From: Rothia kristinae NBRC 15354
GTDB taxonomy: Bacteria; Actinomycetota; Actinomycetes; Actinomycetales; Micrococcaceae
DNA length: 64,000 nucleotides
NCBI RefSeq assembly: GCF_001570865.1
Contig: NZ_BCSM01000011.1
Coordinates: forward strand, 1 to 64,000
Direction: 5' to 3'
Below are positions 2,154 through 33,087 of this stretch, piece after piece (within the stretch, counting starts at the first letter, position 1; the number at the start of each line of letters is the position of its first letter). The notes under the pieces are model-generated. The model saw only the letters and a program-made list of their open reading frames with translations. It was not told the origin of the DNA and searched no databases. Position numbers and translations under genes: made by a program.

Positions 2154-3839
2154 TCAGCCGGACAGGCCGCCGAAGCCGCCGCGGCCCTTGCGGGAGCGGG
2201 AGCGGCTGGTGCCGAAGATGCCGCGCACCAGCTCCCGGCCGATCTGGGAGGCCACGTTGGTGCCCACGCGCATCATCGCGTCGTTGCGTTTCTGCCGCTC
2301 GCGCTCCTCCTCCTTGCGACGCCGCTCCTCCTCCTTGGCCTGCTCCCGCGCCGCGCGCTCGGCCTCCTTGCGCTCCTGGGCCGACGACGCCGCCCCGGAA
2401 CCGTCCGCGCCCGTCGCGCCGGAGGCACCAGCCCCGGAAGCACCGGCACCCCCGGCCCCAGCACCCGCGGACCAGGCCCCAGCAGCACCGCCGGGCCCCG
2501 CCTGCCCGCTGAGCTTCTCGAAGGCGGAGTAGGAGTCCACGACGGTCGCGTACTTCGGCATCAGCGGGGACGCGGCCACGACGGCGTCGACGGCCTCCGG
2601 GGCCGGGCCCATCAGCGAGCGCGGCGCGAACATCCGGGTCCACGCCACCGGGGAGGGCGCCCCGGTCTCGGTCATCACGGTCACCACGGCCTCTCCGATC
2701 CCGGCGGAGGTGAGCACCTGCTCCAGGTCGTACCCGGACTTCGGGAAGGTCTTCACGGTCGCGGTCAGGGCCTTCTGATCCTCCGGGGTGAAGGCGCGCA
2801 GCGCGTGCTGCACCCGGTTGGCCAGCTGCCCCAGTACCTCGGACGGCAGGTCCTTGGGGGTCTGGGTGATGAAGAAGATGCCCACGCCCTTGGAGCGGAT
2901 CAGCCGCACGGTCTGGGTGATGGACTCCTTGAAGGCCTTGGAGGCACCGGTGAACAGCAGGTGCGCCTCGTCGAGGAAGAACACCAGCTTGGGCTTGTCC
3001 GCGTCCCCGACCTCGGGCAGGTCCTGGAAGAGGTCCGCGAGCAGCCACATGAGGAAGGTGGAGAACAGCTGCGGCTTGGACTGCAGCGTGGACAGCTCCA
3101 GCACGGAGATGACCCCGCGCCCGTCCTCGGCGGTGCGCAGGAACTCGGCGGCGTCGAACTCCGGCTCCCCGAAGAACTGGTCCATGCCCTCGGCTTCCAG
3201 CCCCACGATCTCGCGCAGGATCACCCCGGCGGTGGCCTTGGACAGCCCGCCCAGCTGCGCCAGGGCCTCCTTGCCCTCGGCGCTGGTCAGGTGCTGGATG
3301 ACGGCGCGCAGGTCCTCGAGGTTGTACAGCTCCAGGCCCTGCTGGTCCGCCCAGTGGAAGATCAGCTGCAGGCTGGACTCCTGGGTGGCGTTCAGGTCCA
3401 TGACCCGGGAGAGCAGGAGGGGCCCGAAGGACTGGATGGTCGCGCGGATGGGCACGCCCTTCCCGTCCCCGCCGAGGGAGCAGAACTCGGTGGGGAAGGA
3501 CGACGCCGTCCACTCCTGACCCAGGGCGGCCGTGCGCGCGGAGAGCTTCTCGTTGGGCTGGCCGGGGGCGGCCAGACCGGAGAGGTCCCCCTTGACGTCC
3601 GCGAGGAACACCGGGACTCCGGCGTCGGAGAGCTGCTCGGCCATCAGCTGCAGGGTCTTGGTCTTGCCGGTGCCGGTGGCCCAGGCGATCAGACCGTGCC
3701 GGTTCATCATGGACAGAGGCAGGCCGACGACGGCCTCCGGGTGCGGCTGGCCCTCGCTCATCGCCGCGCCGAGGCGCAGGGTGGGGCCGTCGAATCGGTA
3801 GCCGCTGCTGATCTGGGCCAGCTGTTCCTCGTGTGTCAT
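2154..3839 (-). CDS. HerA-like ATPase (DUF853 family)
   Basis: 561-residue P-loop ATPase of the HerA/FtsK superfamily with the DUF853 architecture. Walker A ATGTGKTK is at residues 54-61, and a Walker B LVFFLDEAHLLF lies near 285-295. The C-terminal quarter is Gly/Ala-rich, then highly charged (runs of E, R, K, probably coiled coil), ending in an Arg/Ser/Gly tail. Family members are hexameric DNA-translocase-like ATPases whose cellular job is poorly known; a role in DNA handling is inference. The ATG at 3839 is preferred over the in-frame GTG at 3848 because a TACTGT -10 (3846-3851 on the minus strand) overlaps that GTG and would start transcription at the ATG, giving a leaderless mRNA. Monocistronic. 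Confidence 0.85.
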   Translation of the reverse strand: MTHEEQLAQISSGYRFDGPTLRLGAAMSEGQPHPEAVVGLPLSMMNRHGLIAWATGTGKTKTLQLMAEQLSDAGVPVFLADVKGDLSGLAAPGQPNEKLSARTAALGQEWTASSFPTEFCSLGGDGKGVPIRATIQSFGPLLLSRVMDLNATQESSLQLIFHWADQQGLELYNLEDLRAVIQHLTSAEGKEALAQLGGLSKATAGVILREIVGLEAEGMDQFFGEPEFDAAEFLRTAEDGRGVISVLELSTLQSKPQLFSTFLMWLLADLFQDLPEVGDADKPKLVFFLDEAHLLFTGASKAFKESITQTVRLIRSKGVGIFFITQTPKDLPSEVLGQLANRVQHALRAFTPEDQKALTATVKTFPKSGYDLEQVLTSAGIGEAVVTVMTETGAPSPVAWTRMFAPRSLMGPAPEAVDAVVAASPLMPKYATVVDSYSAFEKLSGQAGPGGAAGAWSAGAGAGGAGASGAGASGATGADGSGAASSAQERKEAERAAREQAKEEERRRKEEERERQKRNDAMMRVGTNVASQIGRELVRGIFGTSRSRSRKGRGGFGGLSG

Positions 3840-3921
3840 GGGGCCCACAGTACCCGGCGTCGGCCCCGGAACGTCCGGTGGATGCGCAGCATCGCCACAG
3901 GTGCATCCCAGGATGCGTCCC

Positions 3922-3998
3922 TACAGTGGAGAGCACCTCAAAGGTGCGAGTGATTGATGGGGAACGGCCCCGGTCCGATGCGGACCGGGGCCGTTCTT
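3922..3998 (+). ncRNA. Candidate small RNA or attenuated leader, copy 1
   Basis: A TACAGT -10 hexamer (3922-3927) is followed by a 64-nt unit (3935-3998) repeated almost exactly at 4543-4606. The unit has a 5' hairpin GCACCT-CAA-AGGTGC, a linker, and a 15-bp perfect stem (AACGGCCCCGGTCCG, 3963-3977, with 3981-3995; loop ATG) followed by CTTT, i.e. an intrinsic terminator. Promoter plus terminator with no credible gene between them implies a short transcript of about 65 nt. It could be a free small RNA or a terminated leader of the DUF2316 gene. A short reading frame inside it (ATG at 3958) is judged unlikely. A clear -35 is not visible. Confidence 0.55.
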
Positions 3999-4130
3999 TG
4001 CCCAGACGACCTTCCCTGACCGACGTTCCACCGCCCGGGAAGGGGTGACGCCGCGAGTCCCCGCCCTCTGCGCCCGCGCGCGGGCTTGGTATCTTGAGGG
4101 CATCGACCCATCCACCGCCGGAGGCATCCC

Positions 4131-4448
4131 TTGTCCCTGAACGCCGAAGAGCGCAGGACCACCAGCGAGGAGCTGCGCGCCAACCTGCTCCTGTCCGACC
4201 TGTCCGAGACCGAGGTCCTGGACACCCTCGACCTCACCCCCAGCCAGCTGGAGCGGATCCTGGACGTCTCCCCCGAGGCCGACCCGGCCGACGTCTGGCT
4301 GGTGCGCGACTTCATCCTGCAGACCCTCGAAGGCCAGTCCCGCGAGCCGCGGCCCTTCACCGTGCTCACCGAGCAGGCCCGCACCGACGCGCAGCGCTGG
4401 TTCGGCCTGCACGAGGTCCCGCCGACGCCGCAGGCCAGCCCCGAGTAG
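4131..4448 (+). CDS. DUF2316 family protein
   Basis: 105-residue protein beginning MSLNAEERRTTSEEL, matching the DUF2316 family of small actinobacterial and Gram-positive proteins. The region LSDLSETEVLDTLDLTPSQLERIL (about residues 24-47) looks like a helix-turn-helix, followed by a DVWLVRDFILQTL helix, so DNA binding is possible but not shown. Start is TTG at 4131 with GGAG about 8 nt upstream; a TATCTT hexamer lies near 4091. The gene sits exactly between the two small-RNA-like units, which makes shared control likely. Molecular function unknown. Confidence 0.8.
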   Translation: MSLNAEERRTTSEELRANLLLSDLSETEVLDTLDLTPSQLERILDVSPEADPADVWLVRDFILQTLEGQSREPRPFTVLTEQARTDAQRWFGLHEVPPTPQASPE

Positions 4449-4529
4449 GCCGCGCCGCAGGCCCACACCCCCTGCGAAACACCTGGTCAACACGCAGAGG
4501 GAACTCAGGGAAACCTCAGCATCGATCCG

Positions 4530-4606
4530 TACGGTAGGAACTACCTCAAAGGTGCGAGTGATTGATGGGGAACGGCCCCGGTCCGATACGGACCGGGGCC
4601 GTTCTT
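4530..4606 (+). ncRNA. Candidate small RNA or attenuated leader, copy 2
   Basis: Second copy of the 64-nt unit (4543-4606), 63 of 64 bases identical to copy 1; the only change is G to A in the terminator loop. The sequence upstream is unrelated to copy 1 except that a TACGGT -10 hexamer (4530-4535) sits at the same 13-nt distance from the unit. The terminator stem is 4571-4585 with 4589-4603, tail CTTCTT. The 5' hairpin is shorter here (ACCT-CAA-AGGT). It lies 40 nt before the NmrA-like reductase gene. Confidence 0.55.
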
Positions 4607-4646
4607 CTTAACCACCCGCGCCCACTCCCGCAAGAACGGAGCCCCC

Positions 4647-5387
4647 ATGACTCGCATCGCCGTCGCCGGCGCGTCCGGCGCCATCGGAACCCTCGTCCTG
4701 CACGACGCCGCCCAGGCCGGGCTGGACACGGTCTCCCTGGACCGCGCCCACGGCATCGACCTGCTCACCGGAGAGGGGCTGGCCGCGGCCCTGGAGGGAG
4801 TCACGGCCGTCATCGACGTCTCCCAGGTCGCCCCGCCCGACCATGAGAACCCCACCGGCCCGATCCTGCGCGCCGCAGGCCACCTGCTCGAGGCCGCCCA
4901 GGCCGCCGGCGTCCGGCGTCTGGTCATGCTCTCCATCAACGGCGTGCAGGACGAGGGGCTGCAGCAGTTCCCCTTCTACGCCGCCCGCGCCGCCCAGGAG
5001 GAGCTGGTGGGCCGATCCTCGGTGGAGCACCTGATCGTGCGCAGCGCCCAGTGGTTCGAGTTCGGCATGAATCCCGCGGCGGTCACCGAGGAGCAGGACC
5101 GGGTGCGAGCGCAGGACTGGGCGATCCAGCCGCTGGCCGCCGCCTCCGTCGCCAGCTTCCTGGTGGAGGCGGCCCAGGGCCAGCATGGCGCCGGCATGGT
5201 CACTCTGGCCGGCCCGGATCGGATGCGCCTGCCCGAGCTCACGGAGCGCACGCTGCGGGCCCGCGGAGACCGGCGGCCCGTGCACGCCGAGGATCCGGTC
5301 CTTCCGGGGCTGGGCGACGGCACCCTGCACGCGCCGTCCGACGCCCGCATCCTGGGGCCGGGGCTCGCGCAGTGGCTGGAAGGATGA
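4647..5387 (+). CDS. NmrA/SDR-like NAD(P)-binding protein
   Basis: 246-residue atypical short-chain dehydrogenase. The N-terminal IAVAGASGAIG is the glycine-rich dinucleotide-binding motif of the extended/NmrA-type SDRs, and VDVSQVAPPD followed by AAQAAGVRRLVMLSINGVQD is the usual next segment of that fold. No YxxxK catalytic pair is obvious, so it may be a redox-sensing or isomerase-like member rather than an active oxidoreductase. Start ATG 4647 has ACGGAG 6-7 nt upstream. It follows the second terminator unit, so it may be expressed by read-through or from its own promoter. Substrate unknown. Confidence 0.8.
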   Translation: MTRIAVAGASGAIGTLVLHDAAQAGLDTVSLDRAHGIDLLTGEGLAAALEGVTAVIDVSQVAPPDHENPTGPILRAAGHLLEAAQAAGVRRLVMLSINGVQDEGLQQFPFYAARAAQEELVGRSSVEHLIVRSAQWFEFGMNPAAVTEEQDRVRAQDWAIQPLAAASVASFLVEAAQGQHGAGMVTLAGPDRMRLPELTERTLRARGDRRPVHAEDPVLPGLGDGTLHAPSDARILGPGLAQWLEG

Positions 5388-7052: not shown

Positions 7053-7058
7053 GCTCGG

Positions 7059-7143
7059 CGGAGGATGGGGGATTTGAACCCCCGAGGGCGTGAACCCAAC
7101 ACGCGTTCCAGGCGTGCGCCATAGGCCGCTAGGCGAATCCTCC
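7059..7143 (-). tRNA. tRNA-Ser(GGA)
   Basis: The minus strand gives acceptor arms GGAGGAT and ATCCTCC, the D-arm GCC...GGC, anticodon stem CACGC/GCGTG with loop CTGGAAC (anticodon GGA, 7107-7109), a long variable arm as in class II tRNAs, and the T-arm GGGGG-TTCAAAT-CCCCC. It reads UCC/UCU serine codons. The 3' CCA is not encoded (the genome has CCG after the discriminator base G), so CCA must be added by nucleotidyltransferase. Confidence 0.95.
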
Positions 7144-7318: not shown

Positions 7319-7323
7319 GGCAC

Positions 7324-7414
7324 CAGCCCCTCGCGTGGCGTCATCGTGGAAAACTCCCCCAGGGCCGGAAGGCAGCAAGGGTATCTGCGCTCTGACGGGT
7401 GCGCGAGGGGTCTT
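7324..7414 (+). ncRNA. ffs: Signal recognition particle RNA (4.5S type)
   Basis: About 90 nt. The closing stem is CCCCTCGCG (7327-7335) with CGCGAGGGG (7402-7410). The universally conserved Ffh-binding loop region is present: GGAAAAC...CCAGGGCCGGAAGGCAGCAAGGG, with the GGAAG tetraloop closing a domain IV hairpin and the symmetric and asymmetric internal loops. With Ffh it forms the particle that targets membrane and secreted proteins. Location directly before dnaX is common in actinobacteria. End positions are approximate. Confidence 0.93.
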
Positions 7415-7490
7415 CTCGTCTCCGCCGTCCCCCTCCACAGACCCGCGGACGCCGTTCGATCTGTCAGTCCCAGCCGTTAGTGTTGTTCGC

Positions 7491-16010: not shown

Positions 16011-16021
16011 ATGATTATCAT
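16011..16021. promoter_or_regulatory. Fur/Zur-like palindrome ATGATTATCAT
   Basis: A perfect 5-1-5 AT-rich palindrome in GC-rich DNA, between the CPBP gene (-) and the siderophore permease genes (+). Its core matches Fur-family (Fur/Zur) operators containing TGATAATCA-like sequence. On the minus strand a TTGCAC hexamer directly precedes it, so it would lie in the -35/-10 spacer of the CPBP promoter. Which metal regulator binds is unknown. Confidence 0.35.
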
Positions 16022-16059
16022 GTGCAATCCTGGGGAGAACCTGGGACTCCCGCCCCCTT

Positions 16060-30828: not shown

Positions 30829-30879
30829 TCGTGTATCTGCCCCGGGAAGCGCCCGGGCACTCGCACCAAGGAGCGACAC

Positions 30880-33087
30880 ATGGATCACCAGAAGACGGCG
30901 CAGTCCGTCCTTGACGGGCTGGGTGGGCCCGAGAACATCAACTACTTCACCCACTGCGCCACGCGCCTGCGCGTGACGCTCAACGACAAGTCCAAGGTGG
31001 ACAAGCCCGCCATCGAGAAGACCGACGGCGTGCTCTCCGTGATCGAGCAGTCCGGGCAGACCCAGGTGGTCATCGGCAACGAGGTCGCGGATGTCTACGA
31101 CGCCATGGCCAAGATGCCCGGGATGGAGAAGGAAGGCGGCTCCGCGCAGAAGCCGGCCGCCGGCGAGGGCGCCGGGGACGAGAAGAAGGCCGGGATCATC
31201 ACCCGGATGTTCGACGTCCTCTCGGACTCCTTCCGCCCCGTCCTGTGGGCCCTGCTGGGCTCCTCCATGATCCTCACGCTGATCGTGCTGCTGCAGACCC
31301 TCGGCGTGTTCGGGCACTACACCAACTTCCAGGGCGAGTCCGTGACCGTGGACCTGGTCAACGGGCCCAAGCTCGGCGACGACGCCCTCAACGCGGACAT
31401 GCTCAACCAGTGGCGTGCCCAGTTCCCGTTCTGGTTCATCATCCTGGGTGCGGCCCTGTCCGTGCTGAACTTCATGCCCATCATGGTGGGTGCGACGGCG
31501 GCCAAGCGGCTCGGCGCCAACATGTGGGTGGGTGCCGCGATCCCCGCGGCCCTGATGACCGACGCCTTCAAGGGCCTGTCCGACATGGCCGGGGGCGCTG
31601 ACCACATCACCCTGTTCCACATCGGCGGCTTGGACGTGCCGCTGTACCTGTTCAACTACACCGGGCAGATCTTCCCGCCCCTGTTCGCGGTGGCGCTGCT
31701 GGCCCCGCTGGAGCGGCTGCTGAAGAAGGTCATCCCGAACATGCTGCACATGGTCTTCGTGCCCATGATCTCCCTGCTGATCATGGTCCCGCTGACCGCG
31801 CTGATCATCGGGCCCATCGGCGTGAAGCTGGGTCTGGGCATCTCCGACGTGTTCCAGTGGCTCAACGACATCAACCCCGCCATCGTGGGTGTGGTGGTCG
31901 CCGGGTCCTACCTGTTCATGGTGCCCCTGGGCCTGCACTGGCCGCTGAACGCCGTGATGATCTCCAACCTGTCCACCCTGGGCTACGACTTCATCCAGTC
32001 CCCGATGGCCGCATACAACTTCGCGGTGTTCGGCGTGGTCACCGGTGTGGCCATCCGCGCCAAGCGGGACAAGGAGCTGCGTCAGACGGCCACGGGTGCG
32101 GCGGTCTCCGGTCTGCTGGGCGGCATCTCCGAGCCGTCCCTGTACGGCGTGGTGCTGCGGTACAAGCGCGTGTTCCCGCTGATCCTGGTGCCCGCGATGA
32201 TCGCCGGCGGTCTGATCTCCTGGATGGGCGTGCGCTCCTACGCCTTCGCGTTCACCTCCCTGCTGTCCATCCCCGCGATGCAGCCGATCCCGCTGTTCTG
32301 CATCGGCCTGGCCATCGCCTTCTTCGGCGGTATGGCCGGGGTGCTGATCTTCGGCTTCCGCTCCAAGGATCAGCGCGAGGCGGATCTGGCCAAGCAGAAC
32401 CTGGCCGCGGATGAGGTACCCACCGAATCCAACGCCCCGGATCTGGTGGCCGCCCCGGCCGGCGCCGTGGCCGCGGCCGCCGGCGGCACCGCGGTGGGTG
32501 CCGCGGGCACGGCCGGCGCCGGGACGGGCGAGGGCGTGTCCTCCACCCGCGACGACGCCGGCTCCGCCAGCGCCGAGCCCGCGAAGCCCGCCGCCCCGGC
32601 GAAGCCGAAGCCGACCTACGAGCCCGGCACCGAGCTGAGCGTCGGCTCCCCGCTGGAGGGCAAAGCCGTGGCCCTGTCCGAGGTCCCGGACCCGATCTTC
32701 TCCGCGGGGAAGCTGGGTCAGGGCGTGGCCATCGAGCCGACCGGCAACACCGTCTACGCCCCGGCCGACGCCAAGGTCATCGCGACCCCGGGGTCCGGGC
32801 ACGCGATGGGTCTGCGGCTGGACAACGGCGTGGAGCTGCTGGTCCACGTCGGCATCGACACCGTGAACCTGGGCGGGGAGGGCTTCGAGGTCCTCGTGTC
32901 CAAGGGCGATGAGGTCACCGCCGGGCAGGAGCTGTACCGCTTCGACCGGCAGGTCATCAAGGACGCCGGGTACCCGCTGATCACCCCGGTGCTGGTGACC
33001 AACACCCCCAAGTACGCCAGCGTGGAGGGTCGCCCGGCCGACGCCGTGACCCCCGGGGACGCGGTCATCACGGTGACCACCAAGTAG
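30880..33087 (+). CDS. PTS beta-glucoside/sucrose-type transporter, EIIBCA
   Basis: 735-residue sugar permease/kinase in B-C-A order. EIIB (1-85) has the phosphorylated cysteine in THCATRLRV (Cys26). EIIC (about 108-510) has ten or so helices with GGISEPSLYGVVLRYK. After an Ala/Pro/Lys linker (about 515-590), EIIA carries the active histidine in LLVHVGIDTV (His656). The B-C-A order marks the beta-glucoside/sucrose/trehalose branch of the glucose superfamily; the sugar is not readable. ATG 30880 has AAGGAG 7 nt upstream. The RAT leader predicts induction by an antiterminator, but no bglG-like gene, phospho-glucosidase or other PTS gene is in this window. Confidence 0.92.
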   Translation: MDHQKTAQSVLDGLGGPENINYFTHCATRLRVTLNDKSKVDKPAIEKTDGVLSVIEQSGQTQVVIGNEVADVYDAMAKMPGMEKEGGSAQKPAAGEGAGDEKKAGIITRMFDVLSDSFRPVLWALLGSSMILTLIVLLQTLGVFGHYTNFQGESVTVDLVNGPKLGDDALNADMLNQWRAQFPFWFIILGAALSVLNFMPIMVGATAAKRLGANMWVGAAIPAALMTDAFKGLSDMAGGADHITLFHIGGLDVPLYLFNYTGQIFPPLFAVALLAPLERLLKKVIPNMLHMVFVPMISLLIMVPLTALIIGPIGVKLGLGISDVFQWLNDINPAIVGVVVAGSYLFMVPLGLHWPLNAVMISNLSTLGYDFIQSPMAAYNFAVFGVVTGVAIRAKRDKELRQTATGAAVSGLLGGISEPSLYGVVLRYKRVFPLILVPAMIAGGLISWMGVRSYAFAFTSLLSIPAMQPIPLFCIGLAIAFFGGMAGVLIFGFRSKDQREADLAKQNLAADEVPTESNAPDLVAAPAGAVAAAAGGTAVGAAGTAGAGTGEGVSSTRDDAGSASAEPAKPAAPAKPKPTYEPGTELSVGSPLEGKAVALSEVPDPIFSAGKLGQGVAIEPTGNTVYAPADAKVIATPGSGHAMGLRLDNGVELLVHVGIDTVNLGGEGFEVLVSKGDEVTAGQELYRFDRQVIKDAGYPLITPVLVTNTPKYASVEGRPADAVTPGDAVITVTTK

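Follow-up and report, generated by a model that had tools for sequence, protein, structure and literature searches.

A small RNA family of the Micrococcaceae, probably activated by PhoP, with twin copies in Rothia kristinae

The window analyzed here comprises the first 64,000 nucleotides of contig NZ_BCSM01000011.1 of Rothia kristinae NBRC 15354. It contains two almost identical units on either side of a gene coding a DUF2316 protein. These units most probably (we estimate a probability of roughly 0.7) represent a family of PhoP-activated, multi-copy, base-pairing small RNAs, in which each unit is an independent gene. If this is true, it would be the first family-wide, regulator-driven small RNA for the largely unstudied Micrococcaceae, and, alongside Mcr7, a second small RNA connected with actinobacterial PhoP.

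The two units occupy positions 3935-3998 and 4543-4606 and are identical at 63 of their 64 nucleotides (98%). The sole difference is found in the terminator loop, which is GATGC in the first unit and GATAC in the second. The -10-like hexamers are TACAGT (3922-3927, plus strand) and TACGGT (4530-4535, plus strand), and in each unit ACCTC begins exactly 13 nt after the hexamer start. All these details agree with the initial annotation, which had also proposed a shared terminator hairpin with a stem of 15 bp. The hairpin is present in both units, and its stem is a perfect 16 bp in each, formed by 3962-3977 and 3981-3996 in copy 1 and by 4570-4585 and 4589-4604 in copy 2. Thus, the layout consists of the hexamer TAC(A/G)GT, ACCTC at 13 nt from the hexamer start, the segment GGTGCGAGTGATTGATGGGG, the 16-bp hairpin and a short T-rich tail. 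The T-tracts of the two units, TTCTTT and TTCTTCTT, are short and weak, and no terminator was called at either unit by a simple terminator scan. The RNA folding z-scores are -6.0 and -6.8, far better than those of shuffled sequences.

The first small RNA is predicted to span positions 3933-4000 of the plus strand. It includes a 5' mini-hairpin (3933-3947), the core GGTGCGAGTGAT (3943-3954), a single-stranded linker extending to 3961, and the terminator (3962-3996) with its T-rich tail. The second would span 4541-4609 of the same strand, with the 5' hairpin, the core GGTGCGAGTGAT at 4551-4562 and the terminator at 4570-4604 followed by the T-rich tail. This second copy is the top match of a covariance model, R1, built from 19 RNAs (83 bits, E 3.6e-18).

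It is important to compare the parts of the RNA that are conserved with those that vary. The invariant parts are ACCU and GGUGCGAGUGAU. The latter is retained without exception in an alignment of 33 RNAs, which represent about 15 genera, and is usually followed by GA or UGA, while ACCU is paired with AGGU in the small 5' hairpin. In the terminator helix eight pairs show double changes, and 37 such cells were counted, compared with a mean of 13.6 in shuffles and 12 or fewer in slid versions. The linker had been suggested to have a function beyond termination, and the invariance of GGUGCGAGUGAU next to terminator stems that vary with compensation is consistent with this idea. A reading of the core as a short open reading frame was rejected, since neither the ATG nor the frame is kept in the alignments. 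The RNA occurs in two forms. The short form of about 65 nt is found in multiple copies. The longer form is distinguished by one additional hairpin and, in many cases, a UUCCC(C) loop in the terminator, and it is present as a single copy in Arthrobacter-like genera; in Rothia it corresponds to the copy adjoining a short-chain dehydrogenase gene. No UUCCC terminator loop was found in the short Rothia copies.

A search of the whole genome of the window strain revealed two additional, more diverged copies, at C11:98332 (minus strand) and C2:214845 (plus strand), and the core is carried by no locus beyond these four. The complement of a 15-nt core segment has exactly four perfect copies genome-wide and none with one mismatch, so the recurrence of the unit exceeds chance. 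One might regard the units as a dispersed REP or terminator element without RNA function, for which a palindromic stem in multiple copies would be typical. This is hardly credible for a sequence that has only four copies in the genome, whose conserved part is the promoter-proximal section and not the palindrome, and that is equipped at every copy with a separate operator and -10 box. A repeat without a promoter is also not what was found, as TANNNT occurs at the fixed position, -13 from ACCTC, in 88 of 102 distinct sites.

The initial annotation had left a choice between twin small RNAs and shared attenuators that control the DUF2316 gene and the following reductase gene. The neighborhood of the two copies makes the second reading understandable. 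The DUF2316 gene (4131-4448, plus strand, TTG start, PF10078 with E 1.9e-24) is located between the copies, and the gene of an NmrA-like NAD(P)-binding protein (4647-5387, plus strand, PF13460) follows the second, so that both units precede a gene of the same strand and the gap between copy 2 and the NmrA-like start is about 40 nt. However, the covariance-model search, in which the unit might have been found always near DUF2316, did find it elsewhere but with DUF2316 at no other copy. The next downstream gene is convergent in 44 of 79 distinct sites, a count based on approximate gene calls from reading-frame composition, and the third copy in the genome faces a convergent permease gene. A same-strand gene immediately downstream, as an attenuator or leader would have, is therefore not a general feature of the copies, and some units are arranged as tandem monocistronic genes. 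For these reasons, a role of the units as cis-acting leaders of the two window genes is very improbable. Each copy has its own promoter and hairpin terminator, kept across species, as expected for a small RNA gene; the family consists of free-standing small RNA genes, and the DUF2316 gene is a neighbor only, outside the small RNA system. The short transcripts proposed to start at the unit are made plausible by the conserved promoter, the core and the compensated terminator.

The other neighbors have a longer association with the pair. A HerA-like ATPase gene (2154-3848, minus strand, PF05872 with E 1e-180) is divergent from copy 1. In other Rothia species the pair is located in the same block of AMP-ligase, NmrA and HerA genes, in a different gene order and without DUF2316, and NmrA-like homologues with 60-62% identity adjoin the copies. 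The NmrA-like, HerA and AMP-ligase genes are thus old neighbors of the pair in Rothia. The pairs in other Rothia have diverged and share 54-61 of 73-78 positions, in contrast to the nearly identical pair of the window. This suggests that gene conversion or a recent duplication is likely in the window pair.

The sequence upstream of the two hexamers had been described as unrelated. In fact, a repeat search extends the twins to 3867-3998 and 4475-4606 (132 nt) at 76% identity, and CAG triplets are present at -26, -37 and -48 before ACCTC in both promoters. In copy 1 the putative operator spans 3887-3913 of the plus strand, with CAG at 3887, 3898 and 3909 in an 11-bp phase and the sequence CACAGGT-GCAT-CCCAGGA. 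In copy 2 it spans 4495-4521 of the plus strand, with CAG at 4495, 4506 and 4517 and the sequence CTCAGGG-AAAC-CTCAGCA. No sigma-70 -35 element was found upstream of the -10 boxes of the window.

The same arrangement is seen throughout the family. CAG occurs at -26, -37, -48 and -59 in 55, 48, 37 and 39 of 102 sites, respectively. Among 84 sites, pairs of CAG at spacings of 11, 22 and 33 were counted 58, 39 and 21 times, compared with shuffle means of 1.3, 1.2 and 0.8, and any other spacing occurs five times or fewer; the relatedness of the genomes means that the sites cannot count as independent, although many genera are represented, as are paralogs inside single genomes. Direct repeats with an 11-bp period upstream of the -10 box are the arrangement of OmpR-family regulons. 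Such a promoter layout is characteristic of class II activation by regulators of the OmpR/PhoB type. The promoter would thus be activator-dependent, with phased half-sites in the place of the -35 element and ending about 10 bp before the -10 box. It is known that 11-bp repeats are used by other OmpR-family regulators too. Direct repeats at this period also make up the pho boxes of Escherichia coli PhoB. PhoP of M. tuberculosis binds direct repeats of TCACAGC with a strict 4-bp spacer and thus the same period (PMC4832192). The predicted half-site here differs, being C(N)CAGG, and as many as four of them can be present.

The genome codes for seven OmpR-type regulators. One of these is a clear PhoP ortholog, which matches 3r0j with E 6e-87, its recognition helix DASIVESYISYLRRKID being near-identical to DVNVVESYVSYLRRKID, and a histidine kinase gene follows its gene. 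Upstream of the phoP start the sequence CTCAGGA-ATCC-CCCAGGG is found, the same repeat as in the small RNA operators. In 29 of 30 relatives CAG-N8-CAG stands at this place, also in Rothia that lack the small RNA. The recognition helix and the box before phoP allow us to propose that PhoP, of the PhoPR two-component system, most probably binds the operators and probably activates the small RNA family. PhoP binding at the operators would mean that a PhoPR signal raises all copies together. Every one of the 50 genomes tested has PhoP, also those of Rothia without the RNA, and so the co-occurrence of PhoP and the RNA is not discriminating.

The main alternative is that the small RNA family, otherwise as described, is driven by another OmpR-family regulator and that PhoP merely uses a similar box. 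With seven such regulators in the genome, one of which (C2:47276) is a second PhoP-like protein with E 3e-71 to M. tuberculosis PhoP, this deserves consideration. However, of these regulators the PhoP ortholog alone is preceded at its own gene by the box in matching orientation and position, kept there in the relatives, and CACAG, the half-site of M. tuberculosis PhoP, is similar to the half-site seen here. We consider control by the second PhoP-like protein or another regulator unlikely, though worth keeping in mind.

A search of the genome with the operator and -10 pattern gave four perfect matches, three of which are the small RNA promoters and one is another site; the phoP promoter has one mismatch. 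With one mismatch allowed, 17 matches were obtained compared with 15 in the reversed control. The raw count is not above the control, and single extra matches are consequently not to be trusted. One such match lies at 16014-16045 of the window (minus strand), some 40 nt upstream of a membrane-protein-like frame that starts with GTG; a Pfam search with the frame tried downstream gave no family. Elsewhere in the genome (L201, G000:C4:139721, minus strand) a similar operator and TATGCT are located just before a penicillin-binding-protein-like gene, which is possibly a PhoP target in cell-wall synthesis.

The distribution of the RNA was assessed with two covariance models. At a threshold of E <= 1e-3, R1 matched 126 of 295 Micrococcaceae genomes, spread over 25 of 32 genera; these counts, like those of the genus search, include some weak terminator-only matches, and the core is present at all family loci inspected. 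R2, built from 33 RNAs, was compared with 396 genomes of the order and matched 25 Micrococcaceae genomes and three others. The three matches in other families lack the core and were rejected as chance terminators. At this sampling the RNA appears to be confined to the Micrococcaceae, in genera including Rothia, Nesterenkonia, Arthrobacter and Citricoccus, with one to eight copies per genome. Within Rothia seven other species have the same RNA, usually in 3-5 copies, and two further species have single divergent copies, while about 20 species lack the RNA. Five weak Rothia matches (G008, G015, G021, G032 and G034) are terminators without the core. A match in Neobacillus citreus was attributed to chance, as it is inside an apparent penicillin-binding protein reading frame. 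Carriage by phages was also rejected: three matches in viral contigs have neither promoter nor terminator, are apparently within coding DNA and are due to chance.

Some copies have unusual settings. An unannotated copy is located on the 138-kb plasmid NZ_CP039425.1 of Citricoccus sp. SGAir0253 (L318, 3001-3037). In one genus, complete units follow each other in tandem, two or three per array, at a spacing of about 150-400 nt (L070, L071, L076, L112 and L127), and each unit of an array has its own operator, its own -10 box and a different terminator. Some copies of one genus have a second, altered core, GGTGCGAGCGATGCAGGTGCGAGTGATGAC, as an internal duplication of the core (L081, 1501-1585, and L082, 1501-1584, both on the minus strand).

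The RNA family is, as far as could be assessed, new. No credible Rfam match was obtained for the window units or for twelve relatives, including at permissive thresholds, where the matches were of microRNA type, on the stem only, and were rejected as chance. The actinobacterial small RNA 6C has C-rich loops, but neither 6C nor other actinobacterial Rfam small RNA families matched these sequences. Searches of the literature, both for the core and for small RNAs of the Micrococcaceae, found no description.

As a class, two-component-controlled, multi-copy small RNAs are known. The closest in design are LhrC1-5 of Listeria monocytogenes (PMC4132741), which are short, occur in five copies with a promoter for each, and are all controlled by one two-component system; a single-stranded linker between two hairpins and a possible C-rich motif in the terminator loop are further similarities. 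However, LhrC belongs to a different phylum and pairs via UCCC motifs, while here the invariant part is GGUGCGAGUGAU and the short Rothia copies have no C-rich terminator loop. Sequence homology and UCCC pairing motifs would mark a member of LhrC; no Rfam relation was found, and the short Rothia copies lack the UUCCC terminator loop. Mcr7 of M. tuberculosis (PMC4038636) is also a PhoP-controlled actinobacterial small RNA and is thought to act at a ribosome-binding site, that of tatC. It differs in that it is described as a highly structured RNA whose free loop measures 33 nt, and as predominant in M. tuberculosis species; the comparison is one of descriptions, and no sequence relation is claimed.

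The product would be an RNA in which the 5' mini-hairpin and the invariant GGUGCGAGUGAU core lead into an unpaired linker and an intrinsic terminator. It would most likely act in trans, the core and the linker pairing with mRNAs near ribosome-binding sites, and in many genera the UUCCC(C) terminator loop might also pair with mRNAs. A target search in seven Rothia genomes, for core complements within 5-30 nt of an ATG, with a reversed-sequence control and a check of start codons, gave exact 9-nt complements before plausible starts in 9 of 26 cases compared with 3 of 27 in the control, a weak enrichment. In the window the segment CACTCGCACC (30859-30882, plus strand) contains a perfect 10-nt core complement directly before AAGGAG and the ATG of a PTS EII sugar transporter gene (30880). 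This makes the PTS gene the best target candidate in the window, though only a suggestive one. The site is missing in the orthologs of other Rothia (L308 was left out, as its first coordinate is not the true start).

The RNA might instead titrate a protein, as a CsrA- or Ms1-like sponge, with GGUGCGAGUGAU as the protein-binding site and the copy number as a dosage device. The strictly invariant core, partly paired in the 5' hairpin, is unlike typical seeds, tandem copy arrays occur in one genus, and no conserved target was found in the seven Rothia genomes, all of which would fit titration. However, the linker into which the core leads is single-stranded, loops of the UUCCC type are a usual feature of base-pairing RNAs, and most copies have no repeated motif inside the single RNA. 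Titration is quite unlikely in our opinion, and base pairing is preferred.

With PhoP control, the RNA may be viewed more generally as a conserved output of PhoP in the Micrococcaceae. It is reasonable to suppose, with somewhat better than even confidence, that the single-copy long form with the UUCCCC loop serves as this output in Arthrobacter-like genera, while in Rothia and others the short forms have been amplified to as many as eight promoter-bearing copies, sometimes in tandem, which would tune the small RNA dose. The elements provide a defined probe set, a defined operator and about 100 natural variants, and with them both the PhoP regulon and the way in which small RNA copy number evolves become directly testable in bacteria that are easy to grow and of low risk.

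Two other RNA genes were observed in the window, the bacterial small SRP RNA (7322-7418, plus strand) and tRNA-Ser (GGA) (7057-7143, minus strand), both ordinary.
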